Shown piece by piece: positions 41,513 to 54,703 of a stretch of DNA of 64,000 nt. Within the stretch, counting starts at the first letter, position 1. Each line of letters begins with the position of its first letter. The notes below the pieces were generated by a model, which saw nothing but the letters and a program-made list of their open reading frames with translations, was not told the DNA's origin and searched no databases. Source of the stretch: an uncultured Methylophilaceae bacterium (GTDB lineage Bacteria > Pseudomonadota > Gammaproteobacteria > Burkholderiales > Methylophilaceae); NCBI GenBank assembly GCA_903953055.1, contig CAJBIA010000008.1, forward strand, positions 19,791 to 83,790, read 5' to 3'. The position numbers and the translations under genes are program-made.

Positions 41513-42247
41513 TTAAATCAGCATCCAAGCGGCCATCCCAGCCATAAGTAAGTCTTCGATGATAGTAATTGTCGACATCGGCAATTCGAATACTGTTCCA
41601 AGGCAAGCACATCTAATTTTTTGTTTTTTTATTACTGCACGAATTACACCTAAACTTGAAAATCCCATTATAACGACTGTTGCTGTATTGGTAATTCTAG
41701 GTTCAAACGCTAATAAATAAGCTAGCCCAAGAGTAAGTTCAATAAATGGGTAAATGAACCCATAAATTTTACTTCGCATGGCCAGCAAGTCATACATCGC
41801 ATAGCTGTTTGCAAATGCATGGATGCTTAGCATTTTAAAAAATGAAAACACTAAAAAGAAACCTGCCATGAAATGCATCATCCAGCGCTCAATGTTAAAA
41901 GGCTCTTGCGAAAAGTTAATGGTTAAAGTGGTCAAAAGGATATAACCAACTATCAAAAATAGTGGTTGATATGTGCGAACCCAATTTGCGATTGGTTGAT
42001 CCTTAAGCGGGGCTTGGCTTGTTTTAGTGAGGTTTAATTCAGATACATTGTATTCACCAACTTTAGCAAGTGCTTTATTGAGCTGGGCGATTGAAGCTAT
42101 TGGATTTTTTAGACTTGCGACTGGAGGACTTAGCGTGACTTTTACTTCTTCAGTAAAAGGCTGGAGGACGGCCGTTACTTTTTTGACACAACTTCCACAG
42201 TGCATGCCATTAATTGCTAATTGTATTGTTTTTTCTGAATGCGTCAT
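41513..42247 (-). CDS. N-terminal HMA metal-binding domain fused to a MauE/DoxX-like membrane protein
   Basis: GMHCGSCVKKV (HMA CxxC); about four TM segments; C-terminal IRCACLGTVFELPMSTITIIEDLLM, MauE-like. Confidence 0.7.
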   Translation of the reverse strand: MTHSEKTIQLAINGMHCGSCVKKVTAVLQPFTEEVKVTLSPPVASLKNPIASIAQLNKALAKVGEYNVSELNLTKTSQAPLKDQPIANWVRTYQPLFLIVGYILLTTLTINFSQEPFNIERWMMHFMAGFFLVFSFFKMLSIHAFANSYAMYDLLAMRSKIYGFIYPFIELTLGLAYLLAFEPRITNTATVVIMGFSSLGVIRAVIKKQKIRCACLGTVFELPMSTITIIEDLLMAGMAAWMLI

Positions 42248-42417: not shown

Positions 42418-45400
42418 ATGTCCCATTCTATGCTCAGTTTGCGCGGTAGCGCGGCGCTATCCTCTTTTAGACTTCAAAAAATCCTTGCGAGTTTAAGTCA
42501 AACAGCACCTCAAATTATGGCAGTGCATGCAGATTTTTGGCACTTTGCTTGGAATGAGGGGCAACTGAATGCAACTGAATTGGATACCTTAACTAAAATC
42601 TTAACTTACGGCCCTCGGATGGATGAAGAGGCCGCTATTGGTGAACTGTTTTTGGTGATTCCACGTCCTGGGACAATTTCACCTTGGGCATCCCGTGCAA
42701 CAGACATTGCAAAGCATTGTGGTTTGTCGAATATGCAACGTATTGAACGTGGCATTGCTTACTACGTCAGTAAGCTTGATGGGTCAGCGTTGAACGATGC
42801 TGAAAAACAGGCTGTTAAAGCTGTAATTCATGACCGCATGACCGAAGTAGTATTTGGAAGTTTGTCTGAGGCAGATAAGCTTTATCATGAAGCAACGCCA
42901 GCGCCATTATCTAGTATAGATATTTTGGTGGGTGGTCGGGCGGCCCTTAATCAAGCTAATGCAGACTTGGGCTTAGCGCTCTCGCCAGATGAAGTTGATT
43001 ACCTATTAGAAAATTTTATACGAATTGGTCGTAACCCTACTGATGTCGAGTTGATGATGTTCGCACAAGCGAATTCAGAACACTGCCGGCATAAGATTTT
43101 TAATGCGGATTGGATTGTCGATGATGTGCCTCAAGCGCAGTCGCTGTTCGGTATGATCCGTAATACACATAAATTAAATCCAGGCGCTACGGTCGTCGCT
43201 TATTCAGATAATGCATCTATAGTTGCTGGATCAGCAGGCCAAAAAACTAAGCGATTTTACCCGCAAGCGGATGGTGCTTACGGTTTTATCGACGAAGAAA
43301 TGCATTACTTGATGAAAGTTGAAACGCATAACCATCCAACTGCAATTTCCCCTTTTGCTGGAGCAGCAACTGGTGCAGGTGGAGAGATTCGAGATGAGGG
43401 CGCTACAGGGAGTGGGTCGAAGCCCAAAGCAGGCTTGACAGGCTTTTCTGTCTCCAACTTGAATATCCCAGGGTTTGGACAGCCATGGGAAGGTGATTAC
43501 GGCAAACCTTCACGTACAGCTTCTCCTCTACAAATTATGATTGATGGCCCCCTTGGTGGTGCTGCTTATAACAATGAATTTGGTCGCCCCAACATTGCGG
43601 GGTATTTCCGCACTTTTGAATTAGAGACTGCAGGAGAAATGCGCGGCTACCATAAGCCAATTATGTTGGCGGGTGGCGTGGGTAATATTTCTGCAAAACA
43701 TTCAAAAAAGAATCCGATCCCAGCGGGAGCCTGTCTCATTCAATTAGGCGGTCCGGCGATGTTGATTGGTCTAGGTGGAGGTGCTGCTTCGAGTATGGAT
43801 ACTGGGGCTAACGCCGAAAATTTAGACTTTGATTCAGTCCAACGTGGCAATCCAGAATTAGAACGTCGTGCACAAGAGGTGATTGACCGTTGCTGGCAGT
43901 TGGGTGACAAAAACCCGATTTTGAGTATCCATGACGTAGGTGCTGGCGGCATCTCCAACGCTTTTCCTGAATTAGTTAACGATGCTGGCGTAGGCGCAAT
44001 ATTTCAGTTGCGAGATGTGCATAACGAAGAGCCTGGCATGTCTCCGCGCGAGCTTTGGAGCAATGAAGCGCAAGAGCGTTATGTCATGGCCGTCAAAAAG
44101 GAAGACTTACCACGTTTTTCTGAAATCTGCGAGCGGGAACGATGTCCTTTTGCAGTCGTGGGAGAGGCCGTTAAAAGTCGCCATTTAACCGTAGCAGATC
44201 GACATTTTGGAAACCAGCCCGTTGACATAGATTTATCAGTGTTGCTAGGTAAGCCTCCTAAAATGTTGCGCGATGTTAAACATGTAAGACGTACTTTGCC
44301 AACATTTGATACATCAAGTATTGATTTAAAAGATGCTGCAAATCGTGTTCTTCGTCTTCCGGGTGTCGCAGATAAAACCTTTCTTATAACCATTGGTGAT
44401 CGCTCTGTGACCGGACTAATTGCACGTGATCAAATGGTTGGTCCTTGGCAAATTCCTGTTGCTGATGTGGCTGTGACTCTAGCCGGTTATGAAACCTATC
44501 AAGGCGAAGCTTTTGCGATTGGCGAAAAAGCACCTCTAGCGCTAATTAATGCGCCTGCATCAGGCCGTATGGCGATCGGTGAGTCGATTACCAATATTGC
44601 GGCAAGTTTGATTAATGATATTAGCGATCTGAAGCTATCTGCTAACTGGATGGCTCCTGCTGGCCACGAAGGGGAAGATGCTGCGCTTTTTGACACAGTT
44701 AAAGCCGTGGGAATGGATCTATGTCCTGCCCTTGGCATAAGCATTCCTGTCGGAAAAGATTCCATGTCGATGAAGACGGTTTGGGATGAGAATGGGGAGA
44801 AAAAGGCAGTTACGTCCCCAATTTCACTAGTGGTTACTGCATTCGCAGCGACAGCAGATGCTCGTAAAACACTTACACCACAATTAAAAAATGATTTGGA
44901 AAAGACAAAACTCATTTTGATCGATTTGGGGGCAGGTAAAAACCGCATGGGTGGATCAGCTTTGGCGCAAGTATATGGTGCAGTTGGCAATGATGCGCCA
45001 GATGTAGATGACGCTGCCCGTTTGAAAAATTTCTTTGGTGTGATTCAACAGCTCAATTTGGATGGGAAACTACTTGCTTACCATGACCGTTCGGATGGGG
45101 GCTTATTTACCACATTGACTGAAATGGCGTTTGCTGGACATTGTGGTTTAAATGTCAATATTGATAGTTTGGCGGGTGATCCCGCAAGTATTCTTTACAA
45201 TGAAGAATTAGGAGCGGTGATTCAAGTTCGCGCTGCTGATGAGGATTCGGTTAAAGCAAGTTTGATAAAATCATTACCAAATTGTGTGCATATGATTGGC
45301 GATGCATCCTCTGGCAATATGATTACTATCTGGCAATCTGGGAACGCCATTTTTGAAGCATCATGTGTTGATTTGCATCGAGCTTGGTCTGAAACCACTT

Positions 45401-46320
45401 ACCAAATACAAAAAATGCGAGATAACCCAGTCTGTGCTCAACAAGAGTATGACCGCATCTTGAACACAGAGGATGTTGGTTTGCATGCTAAATTAACATT
45501 TGATCCTGCGGACGATGTTGCAGCGCCTTATATCAATTCCGGTGTACGTCCAAAAATGGCGATTTTGCGAGAACAGGGTGTAAATGGCCAGACTGAAATG
45601 GCGGCTGCATTTGATCGTGCAGGGTTCGCTACTTATGACATTCACATGAGCGATATCATTACTGGTCGTGTAAGTTTAAGGAATTTTGCTGGACTTGTAG
45701 CTTGCGGTGGCTTCTCTTATGGTGACGTCCTGGGGGCTGGCGAGGGTTGGGCAAAGTCTATATTGTTTAATGCTCGGGCTAGCGACGAATTTTCAGCATT
45801 CTTTCAGCGGCAAGAATCTTTCTCATTGGGCGTTTGTAATGGCTGTCAAATGATGAGTAACTTGCACAGCATTATTCCAGGGGCTGAGCAATGGCCTCAT
45901 TTTGTGCGCAATAAATCAGAACAGTTTGAGGCACGCTTCGCCATGGTGGAAGTGCAAGAGTCGCCATCACTTTTCTTTGCAGGCATGGCTGGAAGCCGCA
46001 TGCCAATTGCTGTTGCTCACGGCGAAGGTTTTGCGGAATTTTCTTCAGAATCTGCTGTCAATGCAGTTGTTGCTGATAAGTTAGTGAGTATGAAGTTTGT
46101 AGATAATGCTGGACATTCAACTGAGGTGTATCCATTTAACCCAAATGGCTCCCCACAGGGAATTACTGGTTTAACTACTAAAGATGGGCGTTTTAGTATT
46201 ATGATGCCCCATCCGGAACGAGTTTTCCGTACGGTGCAAAATTCTTGGCATCCAGATGCTTGGGGTGAAGATGGCGCTTGGATACGTATGTTTAGAAATG
46301 CAAGAAAGTTTATTAATTAA
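42418..46320 (+). CDS. purL: phosphoribosylformylglycinamidine synthase
   Basis: 1300 aa; [48 protein letters not shown]-terminal GATase [10 protein letters not shown]. Confidence 0.98.
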
Positions 46321-46341
46321 AAATAATTTGGAGAGTAATAA

Positions 46342-46824
46342 ATGAAATTTATTAAAACATTGATGATGGTCATCGCATTAAGCATTCCATTTGCATCTTT
46401 TGCAATGGAAAGTGACCAGCAAGTTGAATACACAGAGGCTTTGCGTGATGGTAATGTCAAAGTTGTTAAAAAATACTTGGATTCTGGTGTCGATGTAAAT
46501 GAGAAATTTTTTGCATGGTCGGCATTGCAAATTGCTGCAAACAAGAATCAATTGGGTGTTGTTAAGTTTTTAGTAGAGCACGGAGCTGAGGTTAACTATA
46601 CCCATCCTCTCACTAAAATGTCAGCAGGTGAAATGGCTGCATTTGATGGTTATACCGAAGTTGTGAAATATCTTGCATCAAAAGGCGCGGATTGGAATTT
46701 AAAATTACGTGGCGATGTATCGATTGTCCGTGCAGTTCGTGATACCGGTAATACAAAAATGGTTGATCTGTTAATTTCTTTTGGCGCTAAAGATGATGGT
46801 TGTAAAGAAGAAAAATGCTTCTAG
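46342..46824 (+). CDS. exported ankyrin-repeat protein
   Basis: Signal peptide MKFIKTLMMVIALSIPFASFA; ankyrin repeats (SALQIAANKNQLGVVKFLVEHGAEVN). Confidence 0.85.
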   Translation: MKFIKTLMMVIALSIPFASFAMESDQQVEYTEALRDGNVKVVKKYLDSGVDVNEKFFAWSALQIAANKNQLGVVKFLVEHGAEVNYTHPLTKMSAGEMAAFDGYTEVVKYLASKGADWNLKLRGDVSIVRAVRDTGNTKMVDLLISFGAKDDGCKEEKCF

Positions 46825-46844
46825 TTTGAGTTTATCAAACTAAA

Positions 46845-47252
46845 ATGGATCAATTTAAACAGATGATCAATTGCAAGAATGTTCATAAGTTTTATCGATT
46901 AACCCACAGATATCTACTGGTGTTTGTGGGTTTTTTTGTTTTTAGCCTAAATGTATATGCGGATGAAGTTCAAATTTCTAGTTCGCATATTCAAACTTTA
47001 GCGGCCTCTTGCGCGGCTTGCCATGGTAGTCAAGGCAATAGCGTAGGTGGTACTTCTGTACTGGCTGGTTTGGACGCTTCACATTTGGTTTTGCAAATGA
47101 TGTCCTTTAGAAATGGTAGTCGAAGTTCTACCGTTATGCATCGGCATGCCAAAGGACTGACAGTTGAAGAAATTAATGCTTTAGCAGTGTACTTTTCTGA
47201 ACAAAAACGAGTAAGCGCATTAATTCCACCCAGCCAACTGTTGGAGCAATAA
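46845..47252 (+). CDS. monoheme c-type cytochrome (FccA-like)
   Basis: CAACHG heme motif after a hydrophobic N-terminus; 1 nt upstream of the FCSD gene; likely start at 46845 or 46863. Confidence 0.83.
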   Translation: MDQFKQMINCKNVHKFYRLTHRYLLVFVGFFVFSLNVYADEVQISSSHIQTLAASCAACHGSQGNSVGGTSVLAGLDASHLVLQMMSFRNGSRSSTVMHRHAKGLTVEEINALAVYFSEQKRVSALIPPSQLLEQ

Positions 47253-47253
47253 T

Positions 47254-48516
47254 ATGGCGATAGATAGACGTGATTTTCTAAAAATTGCTGCTACAACAGC
47301 CCTAATTTCTTTTCCAATGATTTCAAAGGCGATCACTCAGTCGAAAGGGCGCATTGTAGTTATTGGGGGTGGTTATGCAGGGGCCACGGCAGCTAAATAT
47401 TTACGTTCCTGGAGCAATGGAAGTTTAGATGTCATCATGGTTGAGCCACGAACTCAGTTTGTTTCATGCCCACTGAGTAATTTGGTTTTGGGGGGCACCA
47501 AGAACATCAATGAACTGACTTTTGGCTACGACATGCTAAAAAGTAATCATGGTATTCAATGGGTTTCAGATGAGGTTGTGGCGATCGATACGTCAGATCG
47601 TGTAGTCAAAATGAAGCGGGGTGAATTAGCTTACGATAGATTAATTATCGCCCCAGGCATTGATTTTATGTATGAACAATTACCAGTTTTGCAAAGTGAA
47701 GAAGCTCAGTTGGCGGTTCCTCATGCCTGGAAAGCTGGTGTACAAACAGTTAATCTTCGTAAACAGCTTGAGAGCATGAAGGATGGAGGGGTGTTCGTTA
47801 TTAGCATTCCCAAAGCACCCTATCGATGCCCGCCTGGGCCTTATGAGCGAGTTTCCCAAGTGGCTTTTTACTTAAAAAATCACAAGCCGAATTCTAAAAT
47901 TATTGTGCTCGATGCCAATGCAGAGATTATTTCCAAAAAAGGATTATTCACTAAAGTCTGGGCTGAAATGTATGCAGGCATGATTGATTACCGCCCAAAT
48001 AGTAGTGTGGTGGATGTTGATGTTGTAGCAAAAACAGTTAAAACGGAGTTTGAGTCTGTGCGAGCTGATGTGCTGAATGTCATTCCGCCGCAACGCGCAG
48101 GAAAAATTGCTCAAATTGCAGGTGTTGCTAATGTCGATAAACGTTGGTGCGAAGTAGACTTTTTAACCTACGAATCAAAAATAATTCCAAACGTGCATCT
48201 TATTGGAGATTCTGTATCCGCTGCATTACCCAAATCTGCCCATATGGCAACTTCACAAGCACGTGTATGTGCTAATGCTATTGTGGCGCTTATGAGCAAT
48301 CAATTGCCAGATTCAGCGCCAGTATTTGCTAATACATGCTATAGCTATGTTTCGGATAAGATGGCGATGCATGTTGCGAATGTTTATCGCTATGACCCTA
48401 ATAAGAAAATTATGGTTTCTGCTGAAGGGGGTGGGGTTTCTGAAAAGCCTTCAGAATTAGAGGGTAATTATGCGCAAGCCTGGGCCAAAAATATTTGGTC
48501 GGATGTTCTGACCTAA
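47254..48516 (+). CDS. fccB: flavocytochrome c sulfide dehydrogenase flavoprotein subunit (FccB/SoxF-like)
   Basis: RRDFLK Tat-like signal; GGGYAGATAAKYLR; VSCPLSN flavin-attachment Cys position; YRCPPGPYERVSQVA and NTCYS redox-Cys positions; IPPQRAGKIA. Confidence 0.88.
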   Translation: MAIDRRDFLKIAATTALISFPMISKAITQSKGRIVVIGGGYAGATAAKYLRSWSNGSLDVIMVEPRTQFVSCPLSNLVLGGTKNINELTFGYDMLKSNHGIQWVSDEVVAIDTSDRVVKMKRGELAYDRLIIAPGIDFMYEQLPVLQSEEAQLAVPHAWKAGVQTVNLRKQLESMKDGGVFVISIPKAPYRCPPGPYERVSQVAFYLKNHKPNSKIIVLDANAEIISKKGLFTKVWAEMYAGMIDYRPNSSVVDVDVVAKTVKTEFESVRADVLNVIPPQRAGKIAQIAGVANVDKRWCEVDFLTYESKIIPNVHLIGDSVSAALPKSAHMATSQARVCANAIVALMSNQLPDSAPVFANTCYSYVSDKMAMHVANVYRYDPNKKIMVSAEGGGVSEKPSELEGNYAQAWAKNIWSDVLT

Positions 48517-48551
48517 GTTCTATTTTTCAGAAAGCGGTGTTGGTAATCATT

Positions 48552-49130
48552 ATGTTGAATTTCAAATTATTTATATCAGCTATTGTTCTGATAAGCATTA
48601 GAAATATAGCAATAGCACACGAAATCACTCCAACAAATATTGCCGTTTACATTCAAGCCCAAGAATATAACCATCAGATTCGATTAAGTCATTATTCTCA
48701 AGATTATTGGTATAGCCAAGGTCCAATGTTAGAGATGGCAGCAGCAGAAGTTTTGGGAGCCAATTATGCTGGCGTTGATATGTGTGATGCGCAACCAAAA
48801 GAGGCAAAGGTTATTGTCTGGCTTCGACCAAGAATGTTTTATAACCCACAAATGCAAACGTTCTACGGCAAAGTGATTGCGGTAGCATATACCGCTGATG
48901 GTAAACCTCTAGCTAATTATGTGGGAGAAACCTCAAAGCGTGCCTTTTTTGATGTTAAAACTGAGCTAAGCTTGAATGAGGTATATCATGGCGCAATGAA
49001 AGTGGTTTCAGCACAGATGAAAGCAGATGCAAAGTTTCAAGATGCGCTTAAAGCCTTATCCTTTTCATCGCCATGTGCAATGGTCAGCTTGTTGCCTGAG
49101 CCAAAAATTCAATTCATGTCATTTCAATAG
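48552..49130 (+). CDS. uncharacterised exported protein
   Basis: Signal peptide MLNFKLFISAIVLISIRNIAIAHE; no family recognised by eye; start at 48552 preferred to 48495. Confidence 0.7.
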   Translation: MLNFKLFISAIVLISIRNIAIAHEITPTNIAVYIQAQEYNHQIRLSHYSQDYWYSQGPMLEMAAAEVLGANYAGVDMCDAQPKEAKVIVWLRPRMFYNPQMQTFYGKVIAVAYTADGKPLANYVGETSKRAFFDVKTELSLNEVYHGAMKVVSAQMKADAKFQDALKALSFSSPCAMVSLLPEPKIQFMSFQ

Positions 49131-49138
49131 GGAGTTTT

Positions 49139-50002
49139 ATGCGAATTTCTAAGCTATTAATAGTTTTAATTGGTTTTGTAGTTTTATCATTCAATGTTCA
49201 GGCACACGAAACGAAAAAAATTACAGGATTAAAAATGCCTGAATCAGCCATCGCTGCAAAAGATGGTCGTATCTTTGTTTCAGAGATTGGTGAATTTGGT
49301 AAAGATGGTGATGGTCAAATTACTGTGATTGATAAAAATGGCGAATTGAAAGTATTTGCACAGGGTTTAGATGACCCTAAAGGCTTAGCAATTGTCGGTA
49401 ATGACTTGTTTGTGGCTGATAATCACCGCGTCATGAAAATTACTTTAGATGGCAAAGTTTCAGTGTTTGCGGCGCCAGAAGCTTTTCCTGAACCGGCTCA
49501 ATTTTTAAATGATTTGGAGTCTGATGCGGCTGGCAATATTTATGTGAGTGATAGTGGAGATTTAAAGGGAGTAGGTGGTGCAATTTATAAAATTAACTCA
49601 AAAGGTAAAGTTACAACCATTATCAATGGCAAACAAGATGCACGTATATTAGCGCCCAATGGTTTGTTGATGGGTAAAACTCAAAACTGCATTATGGTTG
49701 TTGATTTTGTTTCTGGTGTTTTATATCGCTTAGATATGAAGAAAAACGAGCTGATTGAAGTTGCAAATGGCTTCGGTGGTGGTGACGGTATTGTAAAAGG
49801 CAAAAAGGACCAGTTCTATGTCAGCGATTGGAAAAACGGGAAAGTATTTAGCGTTAAATTAGAAAAAGGCGCGGTTGTTAATGCAGAACTTATTAAAGAA
49901 GGCTTTGCGGCCGCGGCAGATATTGCGCCTAGCCTAGATGGTAAATTTCTATTGGTACCTGATATGAAGGCCGGCGAGTTAGTGTATTTGCCACTTCATT
50001 AA
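49139..50002 (+). CDS. exported beta-propeller protein (SMP-30/NHL-like)
   Basis: Signal peptide; repeated DGRIFVSE / GNDLFVADNHRVMKI / GNIYVSDSGDLKG blades. Confidence 0.75.
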   Translation: MRISKLLIVLIGFVVLSFNVQAHETKKITGLKMPESAIAAKDGRIFVSEIGEFGKDGDGQITVIDKNGELKVFAQGLDDPKGLAIVGNDLFVADNHRVMKITLDGKVSVFAAPEAFPEPAQFLNDLESDAAGNIYVSDSGDLKGVGGAIYKINSKGKVTTIINGKQDARILAPNGLLMGKTQNCIMVVDFVSGVLYRLDMKKNELIEVANGFGGGDGIVKGKKDQFYVSDWKNGKVFSVKLEKGAVVNAELIKEGFAAAADIAPSLDGKFLLVPDMKAGELVYLPLH

Positions 50003-50018
50003 GTAATCTTATTTTGTT

Positions 50019-50050
50019 AAAAAAGGCCTTCTGTTGAAGGCCTTTTTTTT
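50019..50050. terminator. intrinsic terminator ending the purL-to-propeller run
   Basis: AAAAAAGGCCTTC-TGTT-GAAGGCCTTTTTTTT. Confidence 0.88.
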
Positions 50051-50068
50051 GCTAATAATACTAATAAT

Positions 50069-50638
50069 TTATTTTGCCTGGGTAACAAGGGTAACTGATT
50101 CGATTGCCACTGTTTGTATTGGAACGTCGCCGCCATCTGTAGGGAGATGTGAGATTTTCTCAACTACATCCATGCCTTTGACTACCTTACCAAACACAGT
50201 ATAGCCCCAGCCGCGTTCAGATTTTTCAGTGTAGTTTAAAAAAGCATTGTTGGCGACGTTTATAAAGAATTGTGAAGATGCAGAATGGGGATCATTGGTC
50301 CGCGCCATGGCGATAGTACCTATTGTGTTGGCTAGACCGTTGTCTGCTTCATTTTTGATTGGTGCGCGTGTTGTTTTTTCATTTAAGCTTTTATCCATAC
50401 CGCCACCTTGAATCATAAATCCAGAAATTACGCGGTGGAAAATCGTACCAGAATAAAAGCCATCTTTTGTGTACTGTAGAAAGTTAGCTACAGTGGTTGG
50501 AGCTTTCTCTTGATTGAGTTCAACTACAATTATGCCTTTGTTCGTTTTGATTTCAACGGTAGGCTGAGCAAACGCGTTGACGCTTGAAGCGAGTGTTGAA
50601 AGCAAGGTGCATGAAATAAATAGTTTTTTAAACGTCAT
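50069..50638 (-). CDS. exported cyclophilin-type peptidylprolyl isomerase
   Basis: [36 protein letters not shown]; signal peptide. Confidence 0.94.
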
Positions 50639-52838: not shown

Positions 52839-53723
52839 ATGAGCATCTTAGTCAATAAAAATACAAAAGTCTTATGCCAGGGATTTACAGGCAAACAAGG
52901 TACATTTCATTCAGAACAAGCATTAGCTTACGGAACAAAAATGGTCGGCGGTGTGACCCCAGGCAAAGGGGGGCAAAGTCATTTAGGCTTACCTGTTTTC
53001 AATACCATGCGAGATGCTGTAGATCAAACAGGAGCGGATGCTTCAGTAATCTATGTGCCACCTCCATTTGCTGCGGACTCTATTTTGGAAGCATGTGATG
53101 CAGGCATTAGTTTAATTGTATGTATTACTGAAGGCATTCCAGTATTGGACATGCTTAATGTAAAGGCTGCGCTTAAAGCAAACAACGTGAAGCTGGTTGG
53201 TCCAAACTGCCCTGGGGTGATTACCCCGGACGAATGCAAAATAGGCATTATGCCAGGCAGTATTCATTTGCGCGGTAAAGTCGGTATTGTTTCTCGCTCA
53301 GGCACGCTAACTTATGAAGCAGTTAATCAAACAACGACTTTAGGTCTTGGTCAATCAACTTGTGTTGGTATTGGTGGCGATCCAATTCGCGGCCTTAGTT
53401 TTATTGACTGCTTGGAGATGTTCCAAGCAGATCCTGAAACAGAAGCTATTATTATGGTAGGTGAAATTGGTGGGGCGGATGAAGAAGCAGCGGCTGATTA
53501 TATTAAGCAGTTTGTCACCAAGCCTGTAGCTGGGTACATTGCAGGCCAGACTGCTCCTAAAGGAAAGCGTATGGGACATGCAGGGGCTATTATTTCTGGG
53601 GGAAGTGGTAAGGCGGAAGATAAGATTTTGGCTTTAGAGAAAGCTGGCGTGATTGTCGCAAGCTCTCCTGCAGGACTTGGTGATGCGGTTATAGCTGCAA
53701 TGAATGCAAAAAAAGACAATTAA
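52839..53723 (+). CDS. sucD: succinyl-CoA synthetase alpha subunit
   Basis: [41 protein letters not shown]-like [13 protein letters not shown]. Confidence 0.95.
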
Positions 53724-54703
53724 TGAACTTTAACTTTTTAAAATACTTAGGCCATCTTGTTGTTGTTCAGATATTAATGGCATTGATAGGTGGTTTCGTT
53801 TTAACTTCCACTGTGTTGGCGGAAGAGAACATATCTTATCTCTTAACAGTTTCTGCTAAGGGCGATCTTGCAACGGTAAGAGCGATGCTAGATGGAGGCA
53901 CAAACCCTAATGTGCGAGATGTTGATGGGGTAACCGCTTTGATGTATGCGGCACGCAAAGACAAATCGGAAGTTGTCAAAGCATTGCTCGAAAAAGGCGC
54001 GGACGCAAATGCCAAGGATAATAGTGGTTGGACAGCTTTGATGTTAGCTTCACGCAAGAATTACCTAAAAACAGCTGAGATTCTTCTCAATAACGGGGCA
54101 GATCCAACACTTCGAGATGTTTCTGGTTGGAGTGCTTTGGGAATGGCGGCAACATCTGGTTATGCGGAAATGGTGAGCATCTTAATTGAGCACGGTATGG
54201 ATGCTAATACTAAGAGCGATGATGGTAAAAGTATTTTGATGTATGCGGCTAAGAATGGAGATGTTGCAACCATAAAGGTTTTGTTGGCACATGGTGCCTT
54301 GGTTGCTGATGCCGATCGATTGAAAGTAAATGCTTTAATGTATGCGGCGCGTGAGGGCAACGTCACTGCAATTGAAACGCTCATTAATTCAGGGGCTAAG
54401 GTCGATGATCAAGACAAGTCTAAATGGACTGCACTTAGTTGGGCAGTTAGAAAAAAACATCTAGAAGCAGTGAGCGTTTTAATATCAAAAGGGGCTGATG
54501 TAAATCATAAAGATGATCAAGGCACCCCACCTTTGCAAAATGCTGTACTTAATGGGGATGCTGCAATGGTTGATTTGTTGATAAAAAACGGCGCTGACGT
54601 TAAAACAAAAGATCAATATGGGCTTACTGCTTTGGTATATGCGTTAAAAGGTAAAAGTTCTGAGATTGTAAAAATGATCAGAGATGCAGGTGGAAATTAT
54701 TAG
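53723..54703 (+). CDS. exported multi-repeat ankyrin protein
   Basis: N-terminal hydrophobic segment; about eight ankyrin repeats (DGVTALMYAARKDKSEVVKALLEKGADANAKDNSGWTALMLAS...). Confidence 0.9.
   Translation: MNFNFLKYLGHLVVVQILMALIGGFVLTSTVLAEENISYLLTVSAKGDLATVRAMLDGGTNPNVRDVDGVTALMYAARKDKSEVVKALLEKGADANAKDNSGWTALMLASRKNYLKTAEILLNNGADPTLRDVSGWSALGMAATSGYAEMVSILIEHGMDANTKSDDGKSILMYAAKNGDVATIKVLLAHGALVADADRLKVNALMYAAREGNVTAIETLINSGAKVDDQDKSKWTALSWAVRKKHLEAVSVLISKGADVNHKDDQGTPPLQNAVLNGDAAMVDLLIKNGADVKTKDQYGLTALVYALKGKSSEIVKMIRDAGGNY

Follow-up and report, generated by a model that had tools for sequence, protein, structure and literature searches.

A window of 64,000 nucleotides (the whole stretch of DNA analysed here), which is part of a 1.67-Mb metagenome-assembled genome of a lake methylotroph of the Methylophilaceae, contains the gene block purL-ank-cyc-fcsd-P4-propeller, and in this block the cytochrome gene cyc and the flavoprotein gene fcsd almost certainly encode a genuine monoheme flavocytochrome c sulfide dehydrogenase (FCSD) of the FccAB type, as judged from sequence. 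The enzyme is a member of the known FccAB class; the novelty of the locus is a conserved hairpin resembling an intrinsic terminator that lies inside the coding region of cyc. In the literature searched no account of the purL-ank-cyc-fcsd-P4-propeller locus was found. The overall explanation favoured here, with moderate confidence, is that FccAB serves sulfide disposal and electron salvage, with the hairpin in cyc as an attenuator; within this explanation the sequences show the gene identities, the catalytic residues, the conserved block, the joint absence of cyc and fcsd in some genomes and a hairpin conserved beyond what coding demands, and we infer the in vivo sulfide activity, the sulfur hand-over, the termination and the regulation of that termination. 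The features of the block are the following.

42418 to 46320, plus strand: purL (FGAM synthase), an open reading frame (ORF), first gene of the conserved block and outside the sulfide function.
46342 to 46824, plus strand: ank, exported ankyrin-repeat protein of 160 amino acids (Pfam Ank/Ank_2).
46863 to 47252 (alternative start 46845), plus strand: cyc, exported monoheme cytochrome c, FccA-type subunit (Pfam Cytochrom_C, match to 5n1t_B).
46901 to 46937, plus strand: intrinsic-terminator-like hairpin with U-tract, within the part of cyc that encodes the signal peptide; proposed to be an attenuator.
47254 to 48516, plus strand: fcsd (fccB), flavocytochrome c sulfide dehydrogenase flavoprotein (Pfam, PDB, residues, tree).
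48552 to 49130, plus strand: P4, exported protein of 192 amino acids from a Methylophilaceae-typical family without Pfam domain (36 of 37 family genomes, AlphaFold, Foldseek).
49139 to 50002, plus strand: propeller, exported SMP-30/NHL-type beta-propeller (Pfam SGL and NHL).
50019 to 50048, both strands: bidirectional intrinsic terminator at the block end (hairpin, dG -18).

The sequence-only reading of this DNA had described co-directional genes with very short gaps that end at one strong terminator. All six genes are indeed present on the plus strand with short gaps, the start of P4 being corrected to ATG 48552, and the bidirectional hairpin stands at the end of the block; the word "one" was wrong, since an equally strong terminator-like hairpin is located within cyc (46901–46932).

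The identity of the enzyme is indicated by domain matches, solved structures, catalytic residues and phylogeny, which agree with one another and with the earlier view of a probably active sulfide:cytochrome c oxidoreductase. The Pfam domains that were to be checked with HMMER were both found, FCSD-flav_bind (80.9 bits, cutoff 26) in the flavoprotein and Cytochrom_C in cyc, and the flavoprotein also has FCSD_central (155.4 bits, cutoff 27). Among PDB sequences fcsd reaches 345 bits to 1fcd/3vrd, and the matches to 3vrd, 1fcd and 5n1t are full-length (E 5e-102 to 8e-98). The protein begins with a Tat-type signal (RRDFLK) and keeps the cysteine for covalent FAD (VSCPLSN), the two cysteines of the redox disulfide (RCPPG, NTCYS), the Glu of the active site (PYER) and the C-terminal Trp. 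The cysteines, named already in the sequence-only reading, are near-invariant in an alignment of 81 FCSDs, where two of the three cysteines and the Glu are found in 81/81, the other cysteine in 80/81 and the Trp in 79/81, and the SQR outgroup of the same alignment has neither the FAD cysteine nor the active-site Glu. In the tree, the SQR outgroup branch of which is very long, the window fcsd falls into a Methylophilaceae clade (support 98/94) inside FCSDs that include those of Chromatiaceae, and apart from SQR. The cytochrome, separated from fcsd by a gap of 1 nt, contains the heme motif CAACH and the axial Met in TVMH, and conservation of CxxCH and the Met extends across 64 homologues. Among PDB entries it is closest to 5n1t_B (2.6e-14), which is the cytochrome subunit in the FCSD of Thioalkalivibrio, and 1fcd_C is matched at 9.7e-11.

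With FccAB of Allochromatium and Thermochromatium (1fcd, 3vrd) the pair shares the fold and domains of the flavoprotein, the FAD cysteine, the redox disulfide, the Glu, the Trp and the adjacent cytochrome gene; however, the cytochrome is diheme there, while here it is monoheme and placed in a purL-led block of a methylotroph. The closest solved cytochrome subunit, short and with one heme domain, is that of Thioalkalivibrio paradoxus FCSD (5n1t), whose flavoprotein is matched with 331 bits, N-terminus included, yet its gene context is different and its CopC copper-binding partner was not seen in the window block. The FCSD of Methylophaga (FccB, loci L061–L063), also from a methylotroph, is a related flavoprotein (52–54% identity), but its gene is flanked by lipoyl synthase-like and citrate synthase-like genes and has no adjacent cytochrome.

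The buried hairpin (46901–46932) consists of 14 pairs and a 4-nt loop, AACCCACAGATATC-TACT-GGTGTTTGTGGGTT, followed by the U-tract TTTTTGTTTTT. It begins 38 nt past ATG 46863 (29 nt past the aligned ATG of relatives) and codes for part of the signal peptide, THRYLLVFVGFF. In the genus set of ten genomes, nine of which have the cyc gene, the hairpin is present in 8/9, and in all 8 about 5–8 U stand directly 3' of the stem. When synonymous codons were drawn according to local codon usage for each of the 8 genomes, equally stable stems arose in 0.005%–0.4% of draws (P 5e-5 to 4e-3); the observed dG values range from -12.3 to -21.4, the null means from -3.3 to -7.6. By this null, protein-coding constraint as the sole origin of the hairpin is ruled out, and an accident of codon use is unlikely. 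The His codon of the hairpin is CAC in 8/8 genomes, and in the five local genes that were counted CAC occurs 9 times and CAT 43 times.

Base pairing is also preserved between the genomes. Standard pairs fill 92.9% of pair cells across the 8 genomes, against 37–53% when the arms are slid by 1–3 columns; three stem pairs show double changes, and the covariation score was matched by 2/500 shuffles. The second stem pair (14–43) is A-U in 5 genomes, G-C in 2 and C-G in 1 (permutation P 0.006), which means that a Thr-to-Ala or Thr-to-Pro change is accompanied by a silent change of a Gly codon (GGT/GGC/GGG) 29 nt downstream. A strict energy-based scan of the whole window, 93% of which is coding, gave 8 hairpins of this class, 7 of them outside ORFs and only the cyc hairpin inside one; it replaced a simple terminator scan of the window, in which there was no excess over shuffles and the end terminator was missed. 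A dispersed mobile repeat was considered as well and rejected, as each genus genome contains at most one further CCCACA..TGTGGG+T5 site, with a different loop. A conserved G+C-rich stem with an immediate U-tract, selected beyond coding constraint, is what one would look for in an attenuator, and it is rather probable that the hairpin is a conserved functional RNA stem.

The sulfur metabolism encoded elsewhere in the same genome bears on what the enzyme may do. Contig 137 (L154, G000 C137:4000-10500) contains a sulfide/persulfide operon with an ArsR-type regulator of weak BigR likeness, two YeeE-type sulfur transporters, a BLH-SQR fusion, TauE and an MBL-fold protein that is similar to the dioxygenase part of Blh and persulfide-dioxygenase-like. 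True SoxY (127.1 bits, cutoff 125) and true SoxZ (126 bits, cutoff 76) are encoded too, and SoxY ends in ENGCG, i.e., it has the C-terminal cysteine of the GGCGG type expected of a SoxYZ carrier. The SoxYZ pair stands without SoxB (L148:8466-9228, G000 C159), and its neighbours in the window's genome, G005, G010 and G013 are moaC and a gene for an M48-type protease. No SoxB was found in the window's genus, and among 37 family genomes true SoxB occurs in G020 alone, so that a complete Sox system, with FCSD in a SoxF role, is not found here. The sequence-only reading had offered accessory electron gain or sulfide detoxification, with methylated sulfur compounds as a possible sulfide source. Because the SQR/persulfide operon and SoxYZ are present in the same genome, detoxification or disposal is the better fit; the source in methylated sulfur finds no support for this genome, as SBP56/methanethiol oxidase was found in none of the 10 genus genomes. 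This context favours sulfide/persulfide disposal with electron salvage over growth on the sulfur of dimethyl sulfide (DMS) or methanethiol.

The following course of events is proposed. The flavoprotein would be exported by Tat with FAD bound and the cytochrome by Sec, and in the periplasm FccB would oxidise sulfide (or polysulfide) at its Cys-Cys/FAD centre. Electrons would pass from FccB to the monoheme cytochrome and further to the respiratory chain, by which the cell would be protected from sulfide and the electrons salvaged, and the zero-valent sulfur product may be handed to the orphan SoxYZ and to the cytoplasmic SQR/persulfide-dioxygenase operon. Transcription that comes from purL-ank into cyc would meet the hairpin about 30–40 nt past the cyc start codon; prompt loading of ribosomes on cyc would block the hairpin and allow transcription to proceed to fcsd, P4 and propeller, and with poor loading the transcript would end after purL-ank. 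Since the hairpin comes after the start codon, no full-length cyc transcript can arise without passing it, whichever promoter is used. It was reported that terminators can work efficiently when they lie within the initial 100 bp of a coding region and are repressed in its latter part (PMC4824070), and together with the position of the hairpin this makes an attenuator its most likely role. That the hairpin is a translation-gated attenuator of cyc-fcsd-P4-propeller is, on sequence grounds, a claim for which the balance is about even. Slightly more doubtful is the full proposal of a working intrinsic terminator embedded in the stretch of a mid-operon gene that encodes the signal peptide, where a signal-peptide residue and a downstream third-codon position covary to keep the stem, thus forming a self-contained translation-gated switch between housekeeping purL-ank and the sulfide dehydrogenase genes. 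Translation-gated attenuation is known from the pil1 leader of S. gallolyticus (PMC3894217) and from trp-type attenuators, which likewise use a stem-loop that ribosomes can block and a U-tract; unlike these, the cyc hairpin lies inside the signal-peptide codons of the structural gene itself, in the middle of the block and without a separate leader peptide.

Several observations weigh against this proposal. The same scan gave no comparable hairpin at this site in other genera, and the divergent genus member G008 is without it, so the hairpin is not essential to FCSD function. It is carried by 8 related sequences, and the covariation rests on two or three events; stems vary from -12 to -21 kcal/mol, with one A-C mismatch in G009, and the U-tract is partly due to Phe-Phe codons, TTT being the preferred Phe codon. 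On the side of sulfur metabolism, SoxYZ occurs also in G013 and G017, both without FCSD, so that the link between FCSD and SoxYZ is not strict. One may ask whether the stem serves the message in another way, through translation or mRNA stability: it would slow the ribosomes during emergence of the signal peptide, or it would protect the mRNA. Its location 29–38 nt into the ORF, in signal-peptide codons, and its conservation with compensation would suit such a role, but the run of U straight after the stem in all 8 genomes is a hallmark of intrinsic terminators, and the other window hairpins of similar energy, terminator-like as well, are all intergenic; this alternative is regarded as unlikely. 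Quite improbable is the proposal that the FCSD yields lithotrophic energy from sulfide freed by DMS/methanethiol oxidation, as put forward for Methylophaga thiooxydans. The Methylophaga FCSD is near the Methylophilaceae clade in the tree, that of M. thiooxydans is inducible by DMS (PMC6548844), and FCSD genes were enriched in metagenomes from stable isotope probing with DMS, dominated by Methylophilaceae and Thiobacillus (PMC4611497), and by these findings the DMS option may apply to other members of the family. However, besides the lack of SBP56 and SoxB in the genus, a single clear SBP56 methanethiol-oxidase-type protein (G020) was found among the 23 family genomes searched, and DMS-related monooxygenases were reported absent from all pelagic strains (PMC6794327).

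The block and its genes were also considered in 37 Methylophilaceae genomes (G000–G036, of which G000 is the window's own). The neighbour comparison that had been recommended shows that the order purL-ank-cyc-fcsd-(GSDH)-P4-propeller is kept across the family. FCSD occurs in 31/37 genomes, and in 30 of these fcsd is within this block. Its order is the same in more than 20 genera, most gaps are below 100 nt, and the flanking genes differ; purL heads it in nearly all Methylophilaceae examined. GSDH, a glucose/sorbosone-dehydrogenase-type propeller encoded between fcsd and P4 where it is part of the block, has no gene at this position in the window's genus, G012 and G020, and in G010 and G029 the propeller gene is located outside the block. 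P4 and propeller are each present in 36/37 genomes, the sole miss being the 0.8-Mb fragment G006. In G013, G017, G031 and G019 cyc and fcsd are jointly missing from the block and ank-GSDH-P4-propeller remains; G019 contains a diverged cyc-fcsd at another place, which groups with Glaciimonas in the FCSD tree, and the pair is found on its own in other taxa (Polynucleobacter, Glaciimonas). In the most reduced genomes, G022 and G024 (1.3–1.35 Mb, Methylopumilus/OM43-sized), P4 and propeller are at separate sites and FCSD is absent. These absences indicate that cyc and fcsd act as a cassette and that the role of the other companions does not require them.

The sequence-only reading had suggested that the four companions form one periplasmic unit, and the corresponding alternative is that the whole block is a single periplasmic redox unit, in which the GSDH-type dehydrogenase, P4, propeller and ankyrin protein would cooperate with FccAB, for instance to feed the same cytochrome or to mature it. 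The long-held gene order with changing flanks and the export signals on all companions speak for it. As stated, the suggestion does not stand, since the cyc-fcsd pair is missing in genomes where its companions stay, P4 and propeller outnumber FCSD in the family (36 genomes vs 31), and both persist apart from the block and without FCSD in the Methylopumilus/OM43-sized genomes. In G019 and G030 a single ORF of 640–650 amino acids (L155:2077-4005, L156:2900-4858) encodes a GSDH-like protein fused to a relative of the window propeller, which ties the propeller to the GSDH-like protein rather than to FCSD. The single unit is thus held to be improbable, and it is proposed that ank, P4 and propeller, although conserved as neighbours, have a role of their own in the envelope that does not depend on FCSD.

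What these neighbours are can be outlined in part. The ankyrin protein, retained also in genomes without FCSD, has a C-terminal cysteine pair (DDGC..eKC) that at least 90% of 43 homologues share, and the nearest solved relative of the propeller is CJ1041C (22gu). P4 gave no credible match to Pfam, NCBIfam or PDB sequences. Beyond the Methylophilaceae it is scarcely found: a sequence search gave 0/24 other genomes, and a profile search of 291 other genomes of the order gave 7 weak matches. Three tandem P4-like units, in open frames of 657 amino acids, occur in a different family of this order (G127 C5:74099-75703). Cys77, Asn97 and Cys174 (numbering of the aligned copy) are invariant in 34 members. 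The AlphaFold model (pLDDT 88, pTM 0.80) resembles the outer-membrane accessory proteins LptE, PelC and PqiC in Foldseek (E 4e-4 to 2e-3), with which it shares a helix, a three-stranded sheet and a long helix; the fold match is weak (TM ~0.3–0.55), and unlike these proteins P4 has an invariant Cys pair, no sequence match and no lipobox seen by eye in aligned N-termini. Tentatively, the model suggests that P4 is an accessory protein of the envelope with distant similarity to LptE/PelC, and probably with a disulfide bond.

The end terminator is formed by AAAAAAGGCCTTC-TGTT-GAAGGCCTTTTTT (dG -18), and similar hairpins are found 3' of propeller in other genera. A scan of 46300–50100 with Rfam gave three weak matches, all far under gathering scores and all at this terminator. 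Upstream of purL, a divergent gene for an HMA + MauE fusion protein (41513–42247) is kept in several genus members, and another ankyrin-type ORF (53723–54703) is located behind sucCD, both in this window and in further members of the genus.

As a practical lesson, short gaps plus a single end terminator are no proof of a simple operon. If the proposal is true, the cyc hairpin would clearly exemplify the overlap of a regulatory terminator with a protein-coding region, and it would provide base-pair evidence that RNA structure shapes amino-acid choice in a signal peptide. Periplasmic sulfide oxidation appears as a trait conserved in the Methylophilaceae: this half-streamlined pelagic genus has retained it, and the two examined genomes of Methylopumilus/OM43 size lack it.

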